From Mucilaginibacter cryoferens (GTDB lineage Bacteria > Bacteroidota > Bacteroidia > Sphingobacteriales > Sphingobacteriaceae), in assembly GCF_014205845.1 (NCBI RefSeq), contig NZ_JACHCR010000008.1, forward strand, positions 124,001 to 188,000: a DNA stretch of 64,000 nucleotides, given 5' to 3'. Shown here one piece after another: positions 1 to 9,534 of this stretch; position 1 is the stretch's first letter, and every line of letters begins with the position of its first letter. Both the position numbers and the translations under genes were made by a program. The notes below the pieces were generated by a model that saw only the letters and a program-made list of their open reading frames with translations, made no database searches and was not told the DNA's origin.

Positions 1-600
1 TCAAAGGCAGAACGCACCCGCCGGTTTATTTTGGAAACTACGGCTCCTATTTTTAATAAGAAAGGTTATGCAGGTACTTCGCTATCAGATTTAACCGAGG
101 CTACCGGCCTTACCAAGGGAAGCATTTATGGTAACTTTGCCAATAAAGAGGAAGTAGCGGCTGCGGCTTTCGATTATAATTCGGGTATGATCAGGAAACA
201 GATCCAGGATAGGGTTCAAAAGGCCATTACCTATTATGATAAGTTGCTGGTATATGCCCAGGTATATCACAGTTTTACCCGTACAGCCACTTTTCCGGCG
301 GGTGGTTGCCCTATATTAAATACCGCTGTTGATGCCGATGATACCAATCCTTTGTTAAAGGAGAAAGCCGCTCACGCTGTTTTACGTTGGAAAAAATCAA
401 TAGAAAACCTTATACAATCCGGAATTGAAGCGGGAGAATTTAGGGCCGATGTGGATATAAACGGTACAGCTCTTTCTATGATAGCCCTCATTGAAGGCGG
501 TATTATGATAGCCAAGGTAACCAACACACCAGCTAATCTTGATGCGGTTTTAAAAACTGTTGATGCCCTGGTTACTGCGTTAAAGCCTGTACAGCAGTAA
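1..600 (+). CDS. TetR/AcrR-family transcriptional regulator, 5'-truncated by the window edge
   Basis: The frame is open from base 1, so the gene starts upstream; the TTG at 31 is an internal leucine codon, not a credible start. The visible 199 residues begin in helix 1 of a TetR DNA-binding domain, and the helix-turn-helix is clear (LSDLTEATGLTKGSIYGNF, then NKEE). The rest is an all-helical ligand-binding domain with a GGCPILN stretch common in TetR proteins of this type. Such proteins are dimeric repressors released by a small ligand. The ligand and targets cannot be told from the sequence; the response regulator and fatty acid hydroxylase downstream are only candidates. Confidence 0.85.
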   Translation, partial: SKAERTRRFILETTAPIFNKKGYAGTSLSDLTEATGLTKGSIYGNFANKEEVAAAAFDYNSGMIRKQIQDRVQKAITYYDKLLVYAQVYHSFTRTATFPAGGCPILNTAVDADDTNPLLKEKAAHAVLRWKKSIENLIQSGIEAGEFRADVDINGTALSMIALIEGGIMIAKVTNTPANLDAVLKTVDALVTALKPVQQ

Positions 601-683
601 CTCAAATATTACAATAGGATGTTGTGAAGGTTGAAAACAAATGATCGTTGCGGTACGTTAGGAAGGGTACCAATTATATAAAA

Positions 684-1073
684 ATGTCTAGAAAGATCTT
701 GATACTCGACGATAGCGAAGATATCCTTGAGGTGATGAAAGAGGTGCTCGAAATGGCGGGTTATGAGGTTAAAACTTTAAACTATACCGATGATATCTGT
801 AAGTCGGTTATGACGTTTAACGCCGATTTGGTGATCCTGGATTATATTCTTTTCGGTATAAATGGCGGCGAGCTTTGCCATATACTCAAAACAAGCGCGG
901 TTACAGCCCATATACCGGTAATTATGGTTTCGGCGTATCCTCGTGTGCTCGAATCATTGGGCAGTTATGGTTCAGATGCTTTTGTAGCCAAGCCTTTTAA
1001 TCTTACCGATATTGTTGATACGGTAAAGGAATGCTTTTTAAAAGCAGGCGATATTGAACATGCCGATTATTAG
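684..1073 (+). CDS. Single-domain response regulator (CheY-like receiver)
   Basis: The 129-residue protein is one receiver domain with all key residues: acidic pair D9/D10, phosphoacceptor D53 (VILDYIL), switch Ser in MVSAYP and K103 in the AKPF motif. There is no output domain, so it probably acts by protein contact or as a phosphate shuttle. I chose ATG 684 over the in-frame upstream start at 648 because receivers normally begin a few residues before the first beta strand (KILILDD). No kinase is adjacent; the window holds several kinases without partners, any of which could be its donor (inference). Confidence 0.85.
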   Translation: MSRKILILDDSEDILEVMKEVLEMAGYEVKTLNYTDDICKSVMTFNADLVILDYILFGINGGELCHILKTSAVTAHIPVIMVSAYPRVLESLGSYGSDAFVAKPFNLTDIVDTVKECFLKAGDIEHADY

Positions 1074-1245: not shown

Positions 1246-2280
1246 ATGGAGTTTTTTAATACCGTACTTAACCTTTTTAAAGGTTTTTTTGGCTGGGGTA
1301 GCTGGGTGAGTTTAACAGATATCATCAAAACCGGCGATTATAGCAAGCTGCTTACTTATCAGGGTTTCCAGGCAATGCTGTTTCCAATTTTGCCTTTTTT
1401 ACTGTTGCTGGAAATTATTCGCGGGGCTTTTTATAAGCGTTTTAAGGTTATCAATTATAAACTGTCGTTTTTCTCCTTCGTTTTTAATTCTTTTATCGGC
1501 AGGTATATCTCTATAGCCATGGTGGTATTGTGCATTGGTTTGTTTGAGAAGCATGCCTTTTTTAAAACCACATTTACCTGGTACTGGTTTATTTATGGCT
1601 ATATAGTTTGGGAGTTTTCTCACTTTTTGTACCATTACTTTGGTCACAAAGTAAGGCTGTTCTGGTGCCTGCACTCTACCCACCACGCGCCAGAGAGTAT
1701 GAATCTGGCCATTAGCAACGCACATTTCTTTTTGGAAGCGCCTTATGCCGATTTTATCCGCACTACGGTTTGTATTTTATTAGGTGTTAGTCCGCTGATG
1801 CTGGGTGTAATTATGTTTATAGATGGCTTTTGGGGCACGTTTATCCATATTGGCGAAAACGTGATGAAAGATGCCCGGCTTGGCTTTTTAAATAATATTA
1901 TCCTTACCCCCTCGCACCATCGGGTGCACCATGCCCGTAATATAAAGTATATGGATACCAATTTTTGTAACCTGTTGCCCATTTGGGACAGGGTATTTGG
2001 TACTTACCAAAACGAAGAGCAAGAAATTGAGATTGAATATGGTATTAGCAGGCCGATGATCAAAAATAGTTTCCTTGATGCTTATTTTGGTGAAATTGTA
2101 GCCCTATCAAAAGATGTATACAAAGCGCCCGGTATTAAAAATAAACTACTGTATATTGTAATGCCACCGGGCTGGAGCCATACCGGCGACCACAAAATGA
2201 CTACCGTAGTAAAGCGGAAGTATTTTGAGGATTTAGAGAAGCAGAAAAATGAAGTGGCGAAGGATAGCGTATTGATGTAA
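1246..2280 (+). CDS. Fatty acid hydroxylase / sterol desaturase family membrane protein
   Basis: This 344-residue integral membrane protein has hydrophobic segments over about residues 40-120 and 165-205. The three histidine clusters of the fatty acid hydroxylase superfamily are present: HFLYH (126-130), HSTHH (143-147) and HHRVHH (224-229), which bind a di-iron centre. Family members hydroxylate or desaturate lipid chains or sterol-like molecules at the membrane. The substrate is not predictable here. It has 170 bp of its own upstream DNA and converges on the lut operon, separated by a hairpin terminator. Confidence 0.88.
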   Translation: MEFFNTVLNLFKGFFGWGSWVSLTDIIKTGDYSKLLTYQGFQAMLFPILPFLLLLEIIRGAFYKRFKVINYKLSFFSFVFNSFIGRYISIAMVVLCIGLFEKHAFFKTTFTWYWFIYGYIVWEFSHFLYHYFGHKVRLFWCLHSTHHAPESMNLAISNAHFFLEAPYADFIRTTVCILLGVSPLMLGVIMFIDGFWGTFIHIGENVMKDARLGFLNNIILTPSHHRVHHARNIKYMDTNFCNLLPIWDRVFGTYQNEEQEIEIEYGISRPMIKNSFLDAYFGEIVALSKDVYKAPGIKNKLLYIVMPPGWSHTGDHKMTTVVKRKYFEDLEKQKNEVAKDSVLM

Positions 2281-2320
2281 AAAGGATTAACGTAGATAAT
2301 ACAAAGGCTTTTTACATCCA

Positions 2321-5766: not shown

Positions 5767-6095
5767 ATTAAATATTTTTACGATTGGGCTAACAGAATTT
5801 ATTATCTATTTTTCATTGTGTACCTGTTCTTATTTAAAAATATAATCTACTTCGCATTTAACTTCAAAAGGAATTAAATAATAAATAAGTGCAGAGCTTG
5901 ATTATTTGTCAATCACTTAGTCTTTCCGATTATACGAAATAATTCTGTAATATTCCATAAGGTACATTTTGTTAATTTATATAGTTGGTTTATAATGTAT
6001 TGTGTATTTCTTTTAAATATTCTACTATTCCTATAGGAATTATATAAATAATGTTTTATGTTTGCACTGTCCAAAGAGACAATCGTTCTTTATTT
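5767..6095. other. AT-rich intergenic DNA, nothing identified
   Basis: This roughly 330-bp stretch between the small membrane protein and the riboswitch is strongly AT-rich and has no credible reading frame. It must contain the promoter for the riboswitch transcript, but I could not pick a clear TAnnTTTG box. Confidence 0.5.
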
Positions 6096-6206
6096 AACTT
6101 ATCAAGAAAGACTGAGGGAAAGGCCCAAAGACGTCTTAGCAACCTGTACATCCGCATAATGTAAAAGGTGCTAATTCCTGCTCCATTCAACGGAGAGAGA
6201 TAGTAT
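6096..6206 (+). ncRNA. SAM-I (S-box) riboswitch
   Basis: The conserved SAM-I core is present in order: TTATCAAGA at the end of P1; CTGAGGGAAAGGCCC; P2 closing AAGAC/GTCTT; TTAGCAACC; P3 TACAT/ATGTA; the invariant AAAAGGTGCTAATTCC; and P4 CTCC/GGAG. P1 closes with ACTTATC against GATAGT (one bulge). S-adenosylmethionine-binding aptamers of this class normally switch off methionine/cysteine genes. Here no protein gene follows on the plus strand; the next transcribed feature is tRNA-Cys, about 50 nt downstream. ACTTAT of the P1 5' strand can also pair with ATAAGT at 6232-6237, a possible alternative fold of an expression platform. Confidence 0.9.
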
Positions 6207-6256
6207 ACCATCTTCGCCCCCTGCCAATCTAATAAGTGATTTTATAGTTTTTTTTA

Positions 6257-6327
6257 AGTCGCGTGACCGAGAGGATAGGTGGGGGTCTGCAAAACCCTAA
6301 ACGGCAGTTCGAATCTGCCCGCGACAT
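6257..6327 (+). tRNA. tRNA-Cys (anticodon GCA)
   Basis: A cloverleaf can be folded: acceptor GTCGCG/CGCGAC, D-arm ACC/GGT, anticodon stem GGGGT/ACCCT with loop CTGCAAA giving anticodon GCA, a 4-nt variable region, and T-arm GGCAG/CTGCC around TTCGAAT. The discriminator base is probably T, as usual for Cys. The outermost acceptor pair is weak (A opposite A), so the ends are approximate. No CCA is encoded, as is common in Bacteroidota. The gene lies directly after a T8 run and about 50 nt after the SAM-I aptamer. Confidence 0.85.
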
Positions 6328-6375
6328 CAAAGTTTTTCCAAAACACATTTTTCTTAGCCTAATTTACAGCTATAA

Positions 6376-6490
6376 TGTTTGCTATGTACCAGGCAATCCC
6401 CTATTTAAAGGTCGAACCGGCAAGTTCGTTCTGTACAGTTGGGGATTGTTTTGTACATTGTAAATAACCTGTATAGCAAAGATTTTTTTA
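6376..6490 (+). ncRNA. Long structured hairpin with T-run 3' of tRNA-Cys
   Basis: Three nested helices can be drawn: TTTGCTAT/ATAGCAAA (8 bp, outer), GTAC/GTAC, and CAATCCCC/GGGGATTG (8 bp, inner), with a small CGAAC/GTTCG hairpin in the apical loop. The outer helix is followed at once by GATTTTTTT. It could be the terminator and 3' processing hairpin of the riboswitch-tRNA transcript, or a separate small RNA. I cannot match it to a known family. Confidence 0.45.
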
Positions 6491-6622
6491 CAAGTTTCCT
6501 CCCGATACCTTATGTATAATTAAGGTGGTTTATTGATTCGCCAATTACATTAAAAGCTGTCTGAATTTGATTTACTAATGCTTTTATAGTTCTAATGAAG
6601 CATATATCCGAGCGCCATTGTA

Positions 6623-6722
6623 ATAACCAGGACTAACCTGGAAAAAACAGTAATAACATGGTAAGAAAAGGGTACTCATTGCGAGTGACAACCAGGATTA
6701 ACCTGGAAAAAACGGGAATAAC
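6623..6722. repeat. Two direct copies of a 35-nt hairpin-forming repeat
   Basis: Copies at 6623-6657 and 6688-6722 differ at about five positions and start 65 bp apart. Each holds the dyad CCAGG-n5-CCTGG followed by AAAAAAC and ends AATAAC. The block lies between the tRNA region and the 3' end of the minus-strand transglutaminase gene. Its function is unknown; operator pair and small repetitive element are both possible. The remainder of 6491-6790 shows nothing else convincing apart from a weak hairpin near 6750. Confidence 0.6.
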
Positions 6723-6747
6723 GTAATTGCAAACGTTGGGGCTTATA

Positions 6748-6767
6748 AAGGCGCATCATATGCGTCT
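6748..6767 (-). terminator. Weak hairpin downstream of the transglutaminase gene
   Basis: On the minus strand GACGCAT-ATG-ATGCGCC forms a 7-bp stem with one mismatch, followed by TTTAT. It is placed about 25 bp after the transglutaminase stop and is the only terminator candidate for the Anbu-transglutaminase operon. Confidence 0.35.
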
Positions 6768-6790
6768 CCCGTCAGACAATCGGCAGCCTA

Positions 6791-7642
6791 CTATAAATAG
6801 GATAATCCATCGTATCCCCCATGGATATAATATACCGGCTGAAAATTATGTTCGTCGGGGGCAAGTTCGCAGCTAACCTGCATGGTTGTAAAGGTTACAT
6901 CGCCAAAAATGTTGGCTATGGCTGTATCGGCGGCATCGCGGCCGGTGGCAATTTTTATAAGGCCGTTAAGCGGTACCAGTTTGGTGGCATCAAACAGAAT
7001 CCATTTGCCGCCCAGGTAGGCCTCAAAACAAGCGTGAAAGTCGGCCGGGTTTAAGTGATAGGCATAGCCAGTAAAATAGCGTGCAGGTATGGTTAAGGCA
7101 CGGCAAAGGGCAATACCTAAGTGTGCAAAATCGCGGCAAACGCCAATTTGCTCGGTAACGGTATCAAAAGCCGAAGTTTGCGAATTACTGTACCCGCTTA
7201 AATATTGCACATTGTTGTGTATCCAATCTGTTAGGGTAACTACTTTCTCAAATGGATTGGTGATGTGCCCAAAAAGATTGTGTGCCAGGCGGTACAACTT
7301 ATCAGACTGGCAATATCTGCTGGGATTTAAATAGGGTAATACCGATGAGTCTAGTTGTGCTACCAGGGTTTCCTGCTGCTGCGCGTAATCTGTAAGTTGG
7401 TAGCTGTTATCAACCAATGCGTTATAGATAACTTTAATGGTGCCGGGTTGATAAACCTCAAAACGCATCAACCGGTTTTCGCCTTGTGCCGATATGATCT
7501 CCTCTACCCTAATGTAAGGATCAACCGTAAAATCTTCGTTTAATACTGTTTGGTTGGGTGTGCGTAAAGCATGTATGTTTAAAATCAATGTGCCCGGCGA
7601 CCGTACTACATATTCCATTTGGGTAAACACATTGAATTTCAT
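6791..7642 (-). CDS. Transglutaminase-like cysteine protease partner of Anbu
   Basis: The 283-residue protein has the bacterial transglutaminase-like fold: an N-terminal beta domain (about 1-100) and a core with the catalytic triad C169 (GVCRDFAH), H203 (FHACFEAY) and D218 (WILFDAT). There is no signal peptide, so it is cytoplasmic. It starts 4 bp after the Anbu stop, so the two are co-transcribed. In many bacteria Anbu is encoded with a transglutaminase of this type, an alpha-E protein and an ATP-grasp protein; only the first is present here. It may process or modify peptides with Anbu (inference). Confidence 0.88.
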   Translation of the reverse strand: MKFNVFTQMEYVVRSPGTLILNIHALRTPNQTVLNEDFTVDPYIRVEEIISAQGENRLMRFEVYQPGTIKVIYNALVDNSYQLTDYAQQQETLVAQLDSSVLPYLNPSRYCQSDKLYRLAHNLFGHITNPFEKVVTLTDWIHNNVQYLSGYSNSQTSAFDTVTEQIGVCRDFAHLGIALCRALTIPARYFTGYAYHLNPADFHACFEAYLGGKWILFDATKLVPLNGLIKIATGRDAADTAIANIFGDVTFTTMQVSCELAPDEHNFQPVYYIHGGYDGLSYL

Positions 7643-7646
7643 TTTA

Positions 7647-8384
7647 TTAGCCTCCGGTTTTAGTTTCTTCTACTTTGTTAAATGTTGCATCCATCCAGTC
7701 CTCAGAGATATGCTCCAGGGCCAGTTTTAGTTCTTCGGCCCATTGGGCCGAAATATATTCGAGGTCTTTCTTTTCGTACCGTTGCTCTACTATTTCAAAG
7801 CTATCTCTTTTATAAACAGCTACATCAATAGGAAAATCAACATTGTTTGAGCTTACCCTTGTCGAATCGAACGAAAGAAACCCTGTTTTAAGTGCTAGTT
7901 TAAGACTACTGTCTTCGGTTAATATCCGGTTCAAAATAGCCTTGCCATGGCCCGAATTACCAATTACCACGTAAGGAGCACCTTGCCCTAATTCAACCCA
8001 GTTTCCTTCGGGATATAGTAAAAAAAGCTTGTGCTCGTCGTCGTCTTTAAGCTGGCCACCAATTATAGTATTCAGATCAAACCTGAAGCCTGCGGCCTCC
8101 AATGAGGCTCTATCTTCTGCAATCACTCTTTTTACCTGTTCTCCAAAGGCGTTTACGGCTTTGTACATTTTGTTAAACTCCTTGGTTTCCAGTAGCTCGT
8201 TAAAATATACAATGGCCTTATCCCGTGCAGATCGCAGGCCGCTTGTCATGATGAAAAGCGAAAATTTATCTTTTTGCGCTATTGTTATTTTCTTTTTTAC
8301 GGTGGTATCTGTACCCGAGGTAATACGTGTATCGGCAATGGCCAATAAACCTTCTTTAACCTTAATCCCGAGGCAATAAGTCAT
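7647..8384 (-). CDS. Anbu, proteasome-like peptidase (bacterial proteasome-related Ntn hydrolase)
   Basis: The 245-residue protein starts M-TYCLGIKV, which places Thr2 as the N-terminal nucleophile after Met removal, followed by the proteasome beta signatures ADTRIT and the conserved Lys (KKKITIAQKDKFS) plus a later GxGxGK-like GNSGHGK. The sequence pattern is that of Anbu, the ancestral beta-subunit-like family, rather than HslV or 20S subunits. Published Anbu structures form open helical rings. It heads a two-gene operon with the transglutaminase. A terminator separates it from the upstream bestrophin gene. Confidence 0.87.
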   Translation of the reverse strand: MTYCLGIKVKEGLLAIADTRITSGTDTTVKKKITIAQKDKFSLFIMTSGLRSARDKAIVYFNELLETKEFNKMYKAVNAFGEQVKRVIAEDRASLEAAGFRFDLNTIIGGQLKDDDEHKLFLLYPEGNWVELGQGAPYVVIGNSGHGKAILNRILTEDSSLKLALKTGFLSFDSTRVSSNNVDFPIDVAVYKRDSFEIVEQRYEKKDLEYISAQWAEELKLALEHISEDWMDATFNKVEETKTGG

Positions 8385-8598: not shown

Positions 8599-9534
8599 TT
8601 AAAGTATGTAAAACGCTGGCTGTTTCTGCGGCTGTTTGTTGATCATCGCATTAATATCGGCTGGCAGTTCATCTTTCATCATCTGCTTAAGGTTGTTTTC
8701 TATAGTGCGGCTAATGGTAGTTGTAGGGGTGTCTGTTGGTTTGTTTTCAAAGGGATCTTGTAGGTGGATGGCCATTTTTTCGATCAGGAAAAAAGCTGAT
8801 GAAATAGCAATTACCAACGGCACCTGAAAAATGCCAAAAAATTCCATTAAACTAAATGGCAGCAGCAAAACAAAAAACAATACCAATAGATGGATATAAA
8901 CACTATAGGTAACGGGGAAAACGGTGTTTTTAATGCGCTCGCAACCACCCATCGAGTTTGTAAACCCGGTTAGGGTACTATCCAAAGCCACTTGCTGGTA
9001 TTCGTTTATCCAACCCAGTTTGTGTAAGGTGCGCAAATCATGTCCCTGTAGCTCATTTAAGGCAAGCGGAACGTGATCCATTTTTTTGATGGTTTTTACA
9101 TCGTCGTCGCTTAAATAAGCTTCAAGGTTTTCTTTGGCATTTTGGCCGCGTAGGTGGCAGCTTAAGCTGTAGCACCAGGCCATTTGCCGCCTGATGATAC
9201 GCTCTTTTAGCGCCCATTTCTGCTCTCCGTCGTGGTTACTACTATCCACAAAGGTTAAAATCTGGCGGGTAAGTGTGCGACTGTCATTTACAATGGCGCC
9301 CCACAACGTTCGTGCTTCCCACCAGCGGTCATAAGCCTGGTTGGAGCGAAAGGCCAGCAGCAGTGAGATTATAGTGCCCAACATGGTTGACACCGTTAAA
9401 GGGATAGACACTGCTTTGAAGTTGTAATACTGGTGTATAAAGTATATAGAGGCCGAGTAAACGGCTACCAGGATGAGCTCTTTTTTTATCTTGCCAAATA
9501 CGTAGCTTACCGGTATATTTTCTTTTAATAACAT
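8599..9534 (-). CDS. Bestrophin family (RFP-TM, UPF0187) ion channel
   Basis: The 311-residue membrane protein matches bacterial bestrophins: hydrophobic helices around 22-75, then the signature FRSNQAYDRWWEARTLWGAI (about 68-88), and two further hydrophobic segments near 210-255. The long soluble loop contains RQMAWCYSLSCHLRG. Bacterial homologues form pentameric channels, some cation- and others anion-selective. It lies 22 bp after the Usp-like gene and shares its operon. Length is typical. Confidence 0.9.
   Translation of the reverse strand: MLLKENIPVSYVFGKIKKELILVAVYSASIYFIHQYYNFKAVSIPLTVSTMLGTIISLLLAFRSNQAYDRWWEARTLWGAIVNDSRTLTRQILTFVDSSNHDGEQKWALKERIIRRQMAWCYSLSCHLRGQNAKENLEAYLSDDDVKTIKKMDHVPLALNELQGHDLRTLHKLGWINEYQQVALDSTLTGFTNSMGGCERIKNTVFPVTYSVYIHLLVLFFVLLLPFSLMEFFGIFQVPLVIAISSAFFLIEKMAIHLQDPFENKPTDTPTTTISRTIENNLKQMMKDELPADINAMINKQPQKQPAFYIL

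Follow-up and report, generated by a model that had tools for sequence, protein, structure and literature searches.

The SAM-I riboswitch aptamer and the tRNA-Cys gene behind it in the window (the whole 64,000-nucleotide stretch that was analyzed, G000:C8:124001-188000) belong to a unit that, as judged by comparison with relatives, is conserved from the promoter region through the end of the tRNA and not beyond. On balance, we consider it somewhat more likely than not that aptamer and tRNA-Cys form one transcription unit whose linker gates the folding of the tRNA under the control of SAM, and that the unit arose when a gene for cysteine desulfurase was lost. Because conservation is confined in this way and because the linker has the features of a switch, SAM-dependent control of tRNA-Cys was the best reading of the data, and an inert relic was not. 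The earlier note had proposed such control, and the conservation of the unit, the pairing of the linker and two computed folding states support the proposal in part. The order of the elements, their conservation, the complementarity of linker and tRNA and the gene remnants in two relatives are features of the sequences themselves.

The window aptamer matched RF00162 over the full model (positions 1-108 of 108) with 73.1 bits against a gathering threshold of 44.4 (E = 3.2e-15; Rfam), and it carries the invariant core common to all 29 aligned SAM-I aptamers of the genus, which come from both protein-gene and tRNA units. ARAGORN predicted a single tRNA in the window, a tRNA-Cys (gca) at 6257-6328 (+), which Rfam placed at 6257-6327 (+) with 48.9 bits, a score not below the Rfam threshold. 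The spacing between aptamer and tRNA is 50 nt. The tRNA forms a cloverleaf with a GCA anticodon and U73, and 19 of the 19 tested stem pairs, a set without pair 1:72, were standard. The earlier description of a well-formed SAM-I aptamer followed after about 50 nt by tRNA-Cys (GCA) was therefore confirmed. Its further claim, that the plus strand carries no protein gene before 13507, is reasonable because the plus-strand open reading frames (at least 60 aa) between 6328 and 13507 do not exceed 116 aa and most of them overlap longer minus-strand frames. The genome (G000, 6.95 Mb) contains five SAM-I aptamers and four tRNA-Cys genes. The features of the unit are given in Table 1.

Table 1. Features of the aptamer-tRNA-Cys unit in the window (labelled L044 among the direct units).
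Feature	Position	Strand	Basis
Promoter-like element TATGTTTG (TAnnTTTG)	6057..6064	+	5' of the aptamer in 22/22 direct units
GTTCTTTA, boxA-like word immediately 5' of the aptamer	6085..6092	+	GTTCTTT common in SAM-I leaders of the genus
SAM-I riboswitch aptamer	6096..6206	+	RF00162, 73.1 bits
P1 5' strand ACTTATC, with two possible partners (proximal and distal strands)	6097..6103	+	Sequence, enforced folds
Proximal P1 3' strand GATAGT, closing the aptamer	6199..6204	+	Sequence; 5 pairs used in folds
Linker (candidate expression platform), antisense to the tRNA 5' half	6205..6256	+	20 linker-tRNA pairs, minimum-energy fold
CCCCC, C-rich part of the linker that pairs with the anticodon-stem/D-stem region of the tRNA	6217..6221	+	Predicted folds
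ATAAGT, distal anti-P1 element complementary to the P1 5' strand	6232..6237	+	Word conservation; enforced in folds
GTGATT, complement (with G-U) of tRNA positions 1-6	6236..6241	+	Linker pairing of positions 1-6 in most of 21 units
tRNA-Cys (GCA), A1.A72 mismatch in the acceptor stem, U73	6257..6328	+	ARAGORN, Rfam, sequence comparison by eye
Long hairpin with T-run, possible terminator but dispersed genomic repeat	about 6378..6489	+	Sequence; further genome matches

The search of relatives for the aptamer-tRNA order that the earlier note had suggested was carried out with a strict pattern (aptamer core, 85-115 nt, then the anticodon loop and T loop of tRNA-Cys) that misses some units. The order was detected in 16 of the 399 genomes of the family, 15 from the genus of the window and one from genus g2. 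The pattern read backwards matched none of the 399, so the order is more than chance, and 16 genomes rule out a one-off arrangement. A scan of a collection with one genome per species gave 19 matches, of which 16 had a predicted tRNA-Cys at that place (15 Mucilaginibacter records and one of Hufsiella arboris); three (L059, L070 and L071), which lack a tRNA-Cys and in which Rfam detected no SAM aptamer, were rejected as chance matches. M. lappiensis (L072) and M. dorajii (L068) are among the species with a direct unit. Rfam was run on eight of the 19. Five more genomes (G013, G017, G031, G401 and G408) were added by a tRNA search in 30 chosen genomes, a biased sample of which the first 16 were picked for having the direct unit, and by Rfam on the loci, bringing the short-spaced unit to 21 genomes in total. 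Among 21 distinct Mucilaginibacter units, whose related lineages are not independent, mean pairwise identity was 0.74 for the 75 nt upstream of the aptamer, 0.82 for the aptamer, 0.58 for the linker and 0.92 for the tRNA. The 77 nt after the tRNA had an identity of 0.19, the level of shuffled letters (0.21).

Folds of linker and tRNA together contained 17-26 linker-tRNA pairs in 21 of the 22 distinct units, including 20 in the minimum-energy fold of the window unit, and none in that of Hufsiella (L035). Forcing the cloverleaf cost 2.7-12.4 kcal/mol in these 21 units; for tRNAs whose acceptor stem contains a bulge, this energy gap is a confounded measure. Other tRNA-Cys genes folded with their own upstream 53 nt served as a control and gave 0-10 pairs in 47 of 49 contexts, the exceptions being L128 (23 pairs) and L133 (29 pairs); the control set comprised 54 genes in 50 distinct contexts, with L140 (28 pairs) set aside as a direct unit itself. 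Both L128 and L133 are operon tRNA-Cys genes, and near-identical relatives of L128 (L129 and L159) gave only five pairs.

The linker word AAGTG(A)TT is double-sided: ATAAGT is complementary to the 5' strand of P1, and GTGATT is the partner of tRNA positions 1-6. In most of 21 units these tRNA positions were predicted to pair with the linker. The predicted linker partner of tRNA positions 24-27 varied with the tRNA and gave G-C, A-U, U-A and C-G pairs across species, in linkers that also carry indels. Swapping linkers and tRNAs among units revealed only partial specificity and gave partial support for co-evolution. The linker-tRNA duplex was better than that of shuffled linkers in 22 of 22 units, and clearly so (0-6 of 300 shuffles) in ten. 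Seven units (L041, L040, L064, L074, L045, L116 and L049) were strong in other tests as well (0-4 of 200 and 0-2 of 60 shuffles), and L066, L117 and L060 were intermediate. The window linker was unexceptional in all three tests, where 58 of 300, 26 of 200 and 9 of 60 shuffles did as well. In Hufsiella, which had no linker-tRNA pairing and no P1 effect, 196 of 200 and 36 of 60 shuffles were as good. The L050 unit, with a different tRNA class, had 14 linker-tRNA pairs; it was uninformative in the 60-shuffle test, where 12 shuffles did as well. The pairing signal is carried by the relatives, and that of the window itself is weak. Judged by these predicted folds, the linker resembles an expression platform of a new type.

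A TAAGT or AAAGT word was present in 21 of the 21 Mucilaginibacter direct units with a class-A tRNA and absent from L035 and L050. The complementarity of ATAAGT at 6232-6237 to ACTTAT at 6097-6102 means that a strand competing for P1 is present in the window. When P1 was enforced, the mean acceptor-stem probability was 0.00-0.01 in all 21 Mucilaginibacter units; when the helix between the P1 5' strand and the distal element was enforced instead, it was 0.96-0.99 in all 21. The computed folds are thus two-state, with a misfolded tRNA predicted when P1 is closed and a formed acceptor stem predicted with the alternative helix. The cloverleaf was not fully predicted in the anti-P1 state because the anticodon stem reached a probability of just 0.18-0.78. 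In 19 of 21 units the ensemble energies of the P1 and anti-P1 states lay no more than 3.4 kcal/mol apart (-59.5 and -60.4 kcal/mol in the window), and L045 and L116 favored the anti-P1 state by 10.5 and 5.6 kcal/mol. Unconstrained ensembles were 0.3-7.6 kcal/mol below the better of the two states, with an acceptor-stem probability below 0.05 in 9 of the 21 units.

SAM stabilizes P1 in S-box RNAs and should therefore turn the tRNA off. With SAM bound, P1 would close with its proximal 3' strand and leave the linker free to capture the nascent 5' half of the tRNA when this leaves RNA polymerase; the product would be a long hairpin and no tRNA (OFF). Such capture is kinetically plausible, since the 5' half of the tRNA is transcribed first. 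When SAM is low, the P1 5' strand would pair with the distal ATAAGT and the enclosed linker would pair with aptamer sequence, as computed for its C-rich stretch in the alternative state, so that the tRNA would be free to fold and be processed (ON). We infer co-transcription, SAM binding, the sign of the regulation and its effect on the mature tRNA. The purpose may perhaps be to keep cysteine available to translation under sulfur shortage.

The promoter-like word TAnnTTTG, which we take to be the Bacteroidota -7 promoter consensus, preceded the aptamer in every one of the 22 direct units, and it occurred in 52 of the 59 SAM-I leaders of the genus, compared with 8% of shuffles. The earlier note had raised the possibility of a separate tRNA promoter; no promoter-like TAnnTTTG site was found between aptamer and tRNA in any of the 22 units, and such a site of its own for the tRNA was rejected. 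A boxA-like GTTCTTT directly 5' of the aptamer, found in 48 of the 59 leaders and in about 1% of shuffles, is not specific to tRNA units. A near-palindromic word upstream of the promoter-like site (CTATAGGAATTATAT, window 6031-6045) recurs in many SAM-I leaders and is perhaps a repressor site.

These promoter data, with co-transcription as their simplest reading, would also suit SAM control by another route than tRNA misfolding, namely termination at the T-rich stretch, Rho or RNA decay. The linker ends in a T-run in most units and its signal is weak in the window itself, which argue for such a route, but a terminator-like site was searched for in window 5800-6800 and not found. The stable hairpin directly before the linker T-run that an intrinsic-terminator SAM-I riboswitch would have was not found in the window unit either; the 35 nt before the T-run had folding energies of 0.0 to -3.3 kcal/mol in 22 units (-1.1 in the window unit) and -4.8 in Hufsiella. 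With such weak folds and no terminator-like site, an intrinsic terminator before the tRNA was rejected. Another route would also leave the complementarity of linker and tRNA unexplained, and we regard it as unlikely, though deserving of consideration. The long hairpin with a T-run that the earlier note placed after the tRNA is present, but it does not look like part of the conserved unit. The palindromic repeat at 6362-6490 has 13 further partial matches in the window genome (73-92% identity) and the sequence there is unconserved in relatives; the hairpin therefore looks like a dispersed repeat, and a conserved terminator after the tRNA was rejected.

The origin of the unit is suggested by relatives with protein genes. 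The earlier note had considered a sulfur gene in place of the tRNA; relatives instead have a gene between aptamer and tRNA. The order SAM-I, peroxiredoxin, tRNA-Cys was found in G004 (with two tRNAs), G010 and G025 and at L010, L023 and L034, and the order SAM-I, cysteine desulfurase, tRNA-Cys in G052 and G010, with TlpA in G002, and at L006. The window genome also has the order SAM-I, TlpA, SusC, SusD, tRNA-Cys, PIG-L. The tRNA started 6-20 nt past the stop codon at L105, L106, L107, L109, L110 and L111, and 53 nt past it at L113. Among the 32 of 34 SAM-I loci that were examinable with about 1.5 kb downstream, seven had a tRNA-Cys (one on the opposite strand), and the only other tRNA was a tRNA-Val behind the tRNA-Cys at L033. 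The 147-nt gap between aptamer and tRNA at L124 (G056) contains a 36-nt match to a desulfurase start (86% identity, E = 1.8e-7), and the 253-nt gap at L108 (G026) contains a 76-nt match to a desulfurase leader (74% identity, E = 4e-6). Both loci are, from their sequences, likely deletion products. Because these two relatives retain desulfurase remnants, a protein gene was probably lost between aptamer and tRNA-Cys. The unit would probably derive from a SAM-I, cysteine desulfurase, tRNA-Cys operon and have kept the anti-P1 element of the desulfurase leader. Such inheritance fits because 7 of 8 desulfurase leaders hold a complement of 6-9 nt to the P1 5' strand as their longest, matched by 0-20 of 200 shuffled leaders; the exception, L109, has 5 nt (136 of 200 shuffles). 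A complement of at least 6 nt was present in just one of six peroxiredoxin leaders.

The alternative given in the earlier note, a relic left by loss of the original target gene, thus probably stands as to origin, with remnants at L124 and L108 and whole sulfur or redox genes elsewhere, and does not stand as to inertness, the short-spaced unit being kept in 21 genomes. An aptamer that controls nothing, with the tRNA read through from an old promoter, would be compatible with the desulfurase remnants. Against it, the aptamer is 82% identical over 21 units where sequence after the tRNA is at the shuffle level, the window has retained the invariant core, and the anti-P1 word is kept in 21 of 21 units; an inert aptamer is accordingly improbable. 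It is likewise improbable that the linker-tRNA hairpin is a fixed, SAM-independent element delaying or guiding tRNA processing, a reading that fits the pairing also predicted without the aptamer, since RNase P needs the tRNA 5' half that the hairpin would bury and the aptamer and anti-P1 element would be left without a role.

The tRNA-Cys of the unit is unusual in its first acceptor pair, which by eye is A1.A72 in the window; in the remaining class-A direct units, A or U at position 1 faces A or G at position 72. A mismatched first pair (with U1 in one lineage) together with U73 was seen by eye in the Mucilaginibacter direct units except that of G030, and in several operon copies. The housekeeping tRNA-Cys copy, assigned by similarity as one per genome, is regular with G1:C72 by the same comparison. 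A second group of spare tRNA-Cys genes (L050, L053, L111, L113, L132 and L141) has, by eye, a bulged A that is conserved in the 3' strand of the acceptor stem and is flanked by covarying pairs. One cysteinyl-tRNA synthetase (CysRS) scored over the family cut-off in each of 12 of 12 genomes; a second CysRS for the odd-acceptor tRNA, considered as a candidate, was not found over the cut-off in any of the 12. Some CysRS variants do not recognize A1:U72 of selC* tRNA-Cys, according to a review (PMC7609411).

By our own tally, 35 of the 56 non-housekeeping tRNA-Cys matches in 30 genomes were downstream of a same-strand SAM-I aptamer, with unfetched spare loci counted as unlinked unless aptamer and tRNA were both otherwise located. 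At 22 housekeeping loci, no aptamer was nearby in 21, and the aptamer at L140 belongs to a direct unit 9 kb away. Not every spare tRNA-Cys lies in a SAM unit, because SAM model R1 detected none in 19 spare-tRNA or housekeeping loci, including L125-L129, L133, L135, L136, L145 and L159. Within a wider, recurrent link in Sphingobacteriaceae between spare odd-acceptor tRNA-Cys genes and SAM-controlled sulfur operons, the window unit would be a riboswitch with a tRNA as its output, derived by desulfurase loss, in which SAM decides during transcription between antisense capture and folding of the tRNA. We put forward this fuller reading tentatively, as a serious possibility. The spare odd-acceptor tRNA-Cys genes in sulfur operons raise the question why an extra tRNA-Cys would be made at low SAM.

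The proposed switch shares with SAM-I (S-box, RF00162) riboswitches the aptamer, the switching P1 strand and a competing downstream anti-P1 strand, and OFF with SAM is the usual logic of these riboswitches. It differs in that its output is a tRNA gene and its platform would be an antisense strand to the tRNA and not a terminator or start-codon hairpin. The desulfurase SAM-I leaders of the genus have the same upstream elements and, in 7 of 8, the distal complement, but their platform precedes a start codon and the protein gene is missing here. T-box riboswitches are likewise linked to tRNA; there the tRNA acts as the ligand, whereas in the proposed switch the tRNA is what would be regulated. 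The genes known to be under riboswitch control encode proteins. If the proposal is true, the unit would represent a new class of riboswitch target with an expression platform of a new kind, and the SAM level would be tied directly to the supply of the tRNA for a sulfur amino acid. At about 250 nt, the system is compact enough for ligand-controlled tRNA folding and RNase P access to be studied together in one tube. The available portions of the open-licence literature contained nothing evidently about a riboswitch controlling a tRNA gene, which is no proof of novelty. The yjdF riboswitch also connects a riboswitch with the shape of a tRNA; there, however, the aptamer itself is tRNA-like and controls translation (PMC9142559), whereas the aptamer of the present unit is followed by a genuine tRNA gene. 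The selC* tRNA-Cys described in PMC7609411 resembles the present one in its unusual acceptor end with U73, and A1 in some members, but is of 8/4 structure and is accompanied in some species by a second CysRS, whereas here the arms look ordinary and a single CysRS was found (12 of 12 genomes).

Several other arrangements of tRNA-Cys genes were observed. Spare copies without a SAM aptamer lie directly behind SusC-SusD operons at L125-L129, L159, L114 and L212, in some cases with a peptidase S51 gene between. At L213 (G096), where Rfam detected no SAM aptamer, a spare tRNA-Cys at 6945-7016 (+) is directly 5' of an ABC transporter gene at 7130-8158 (+) that is metN-like by eye. The neighbor of the tRNA-Cys at L144 is a SpoU methylase gene. 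At L143 in the window genome, a weak SAM-like match at 8158-8262 (-) (36.5 bits, model R1) lies on the opposite strand near a tRNA-Cys at 8785-8858 (+). The reverse order occurs in genus g14, where tRNA-Cys is 4-16 nt 5' of a same-strand SAM-I aptamer (L209 at 2110-2296 (+) in G197 and L210 at 597-773 (-) in G205).
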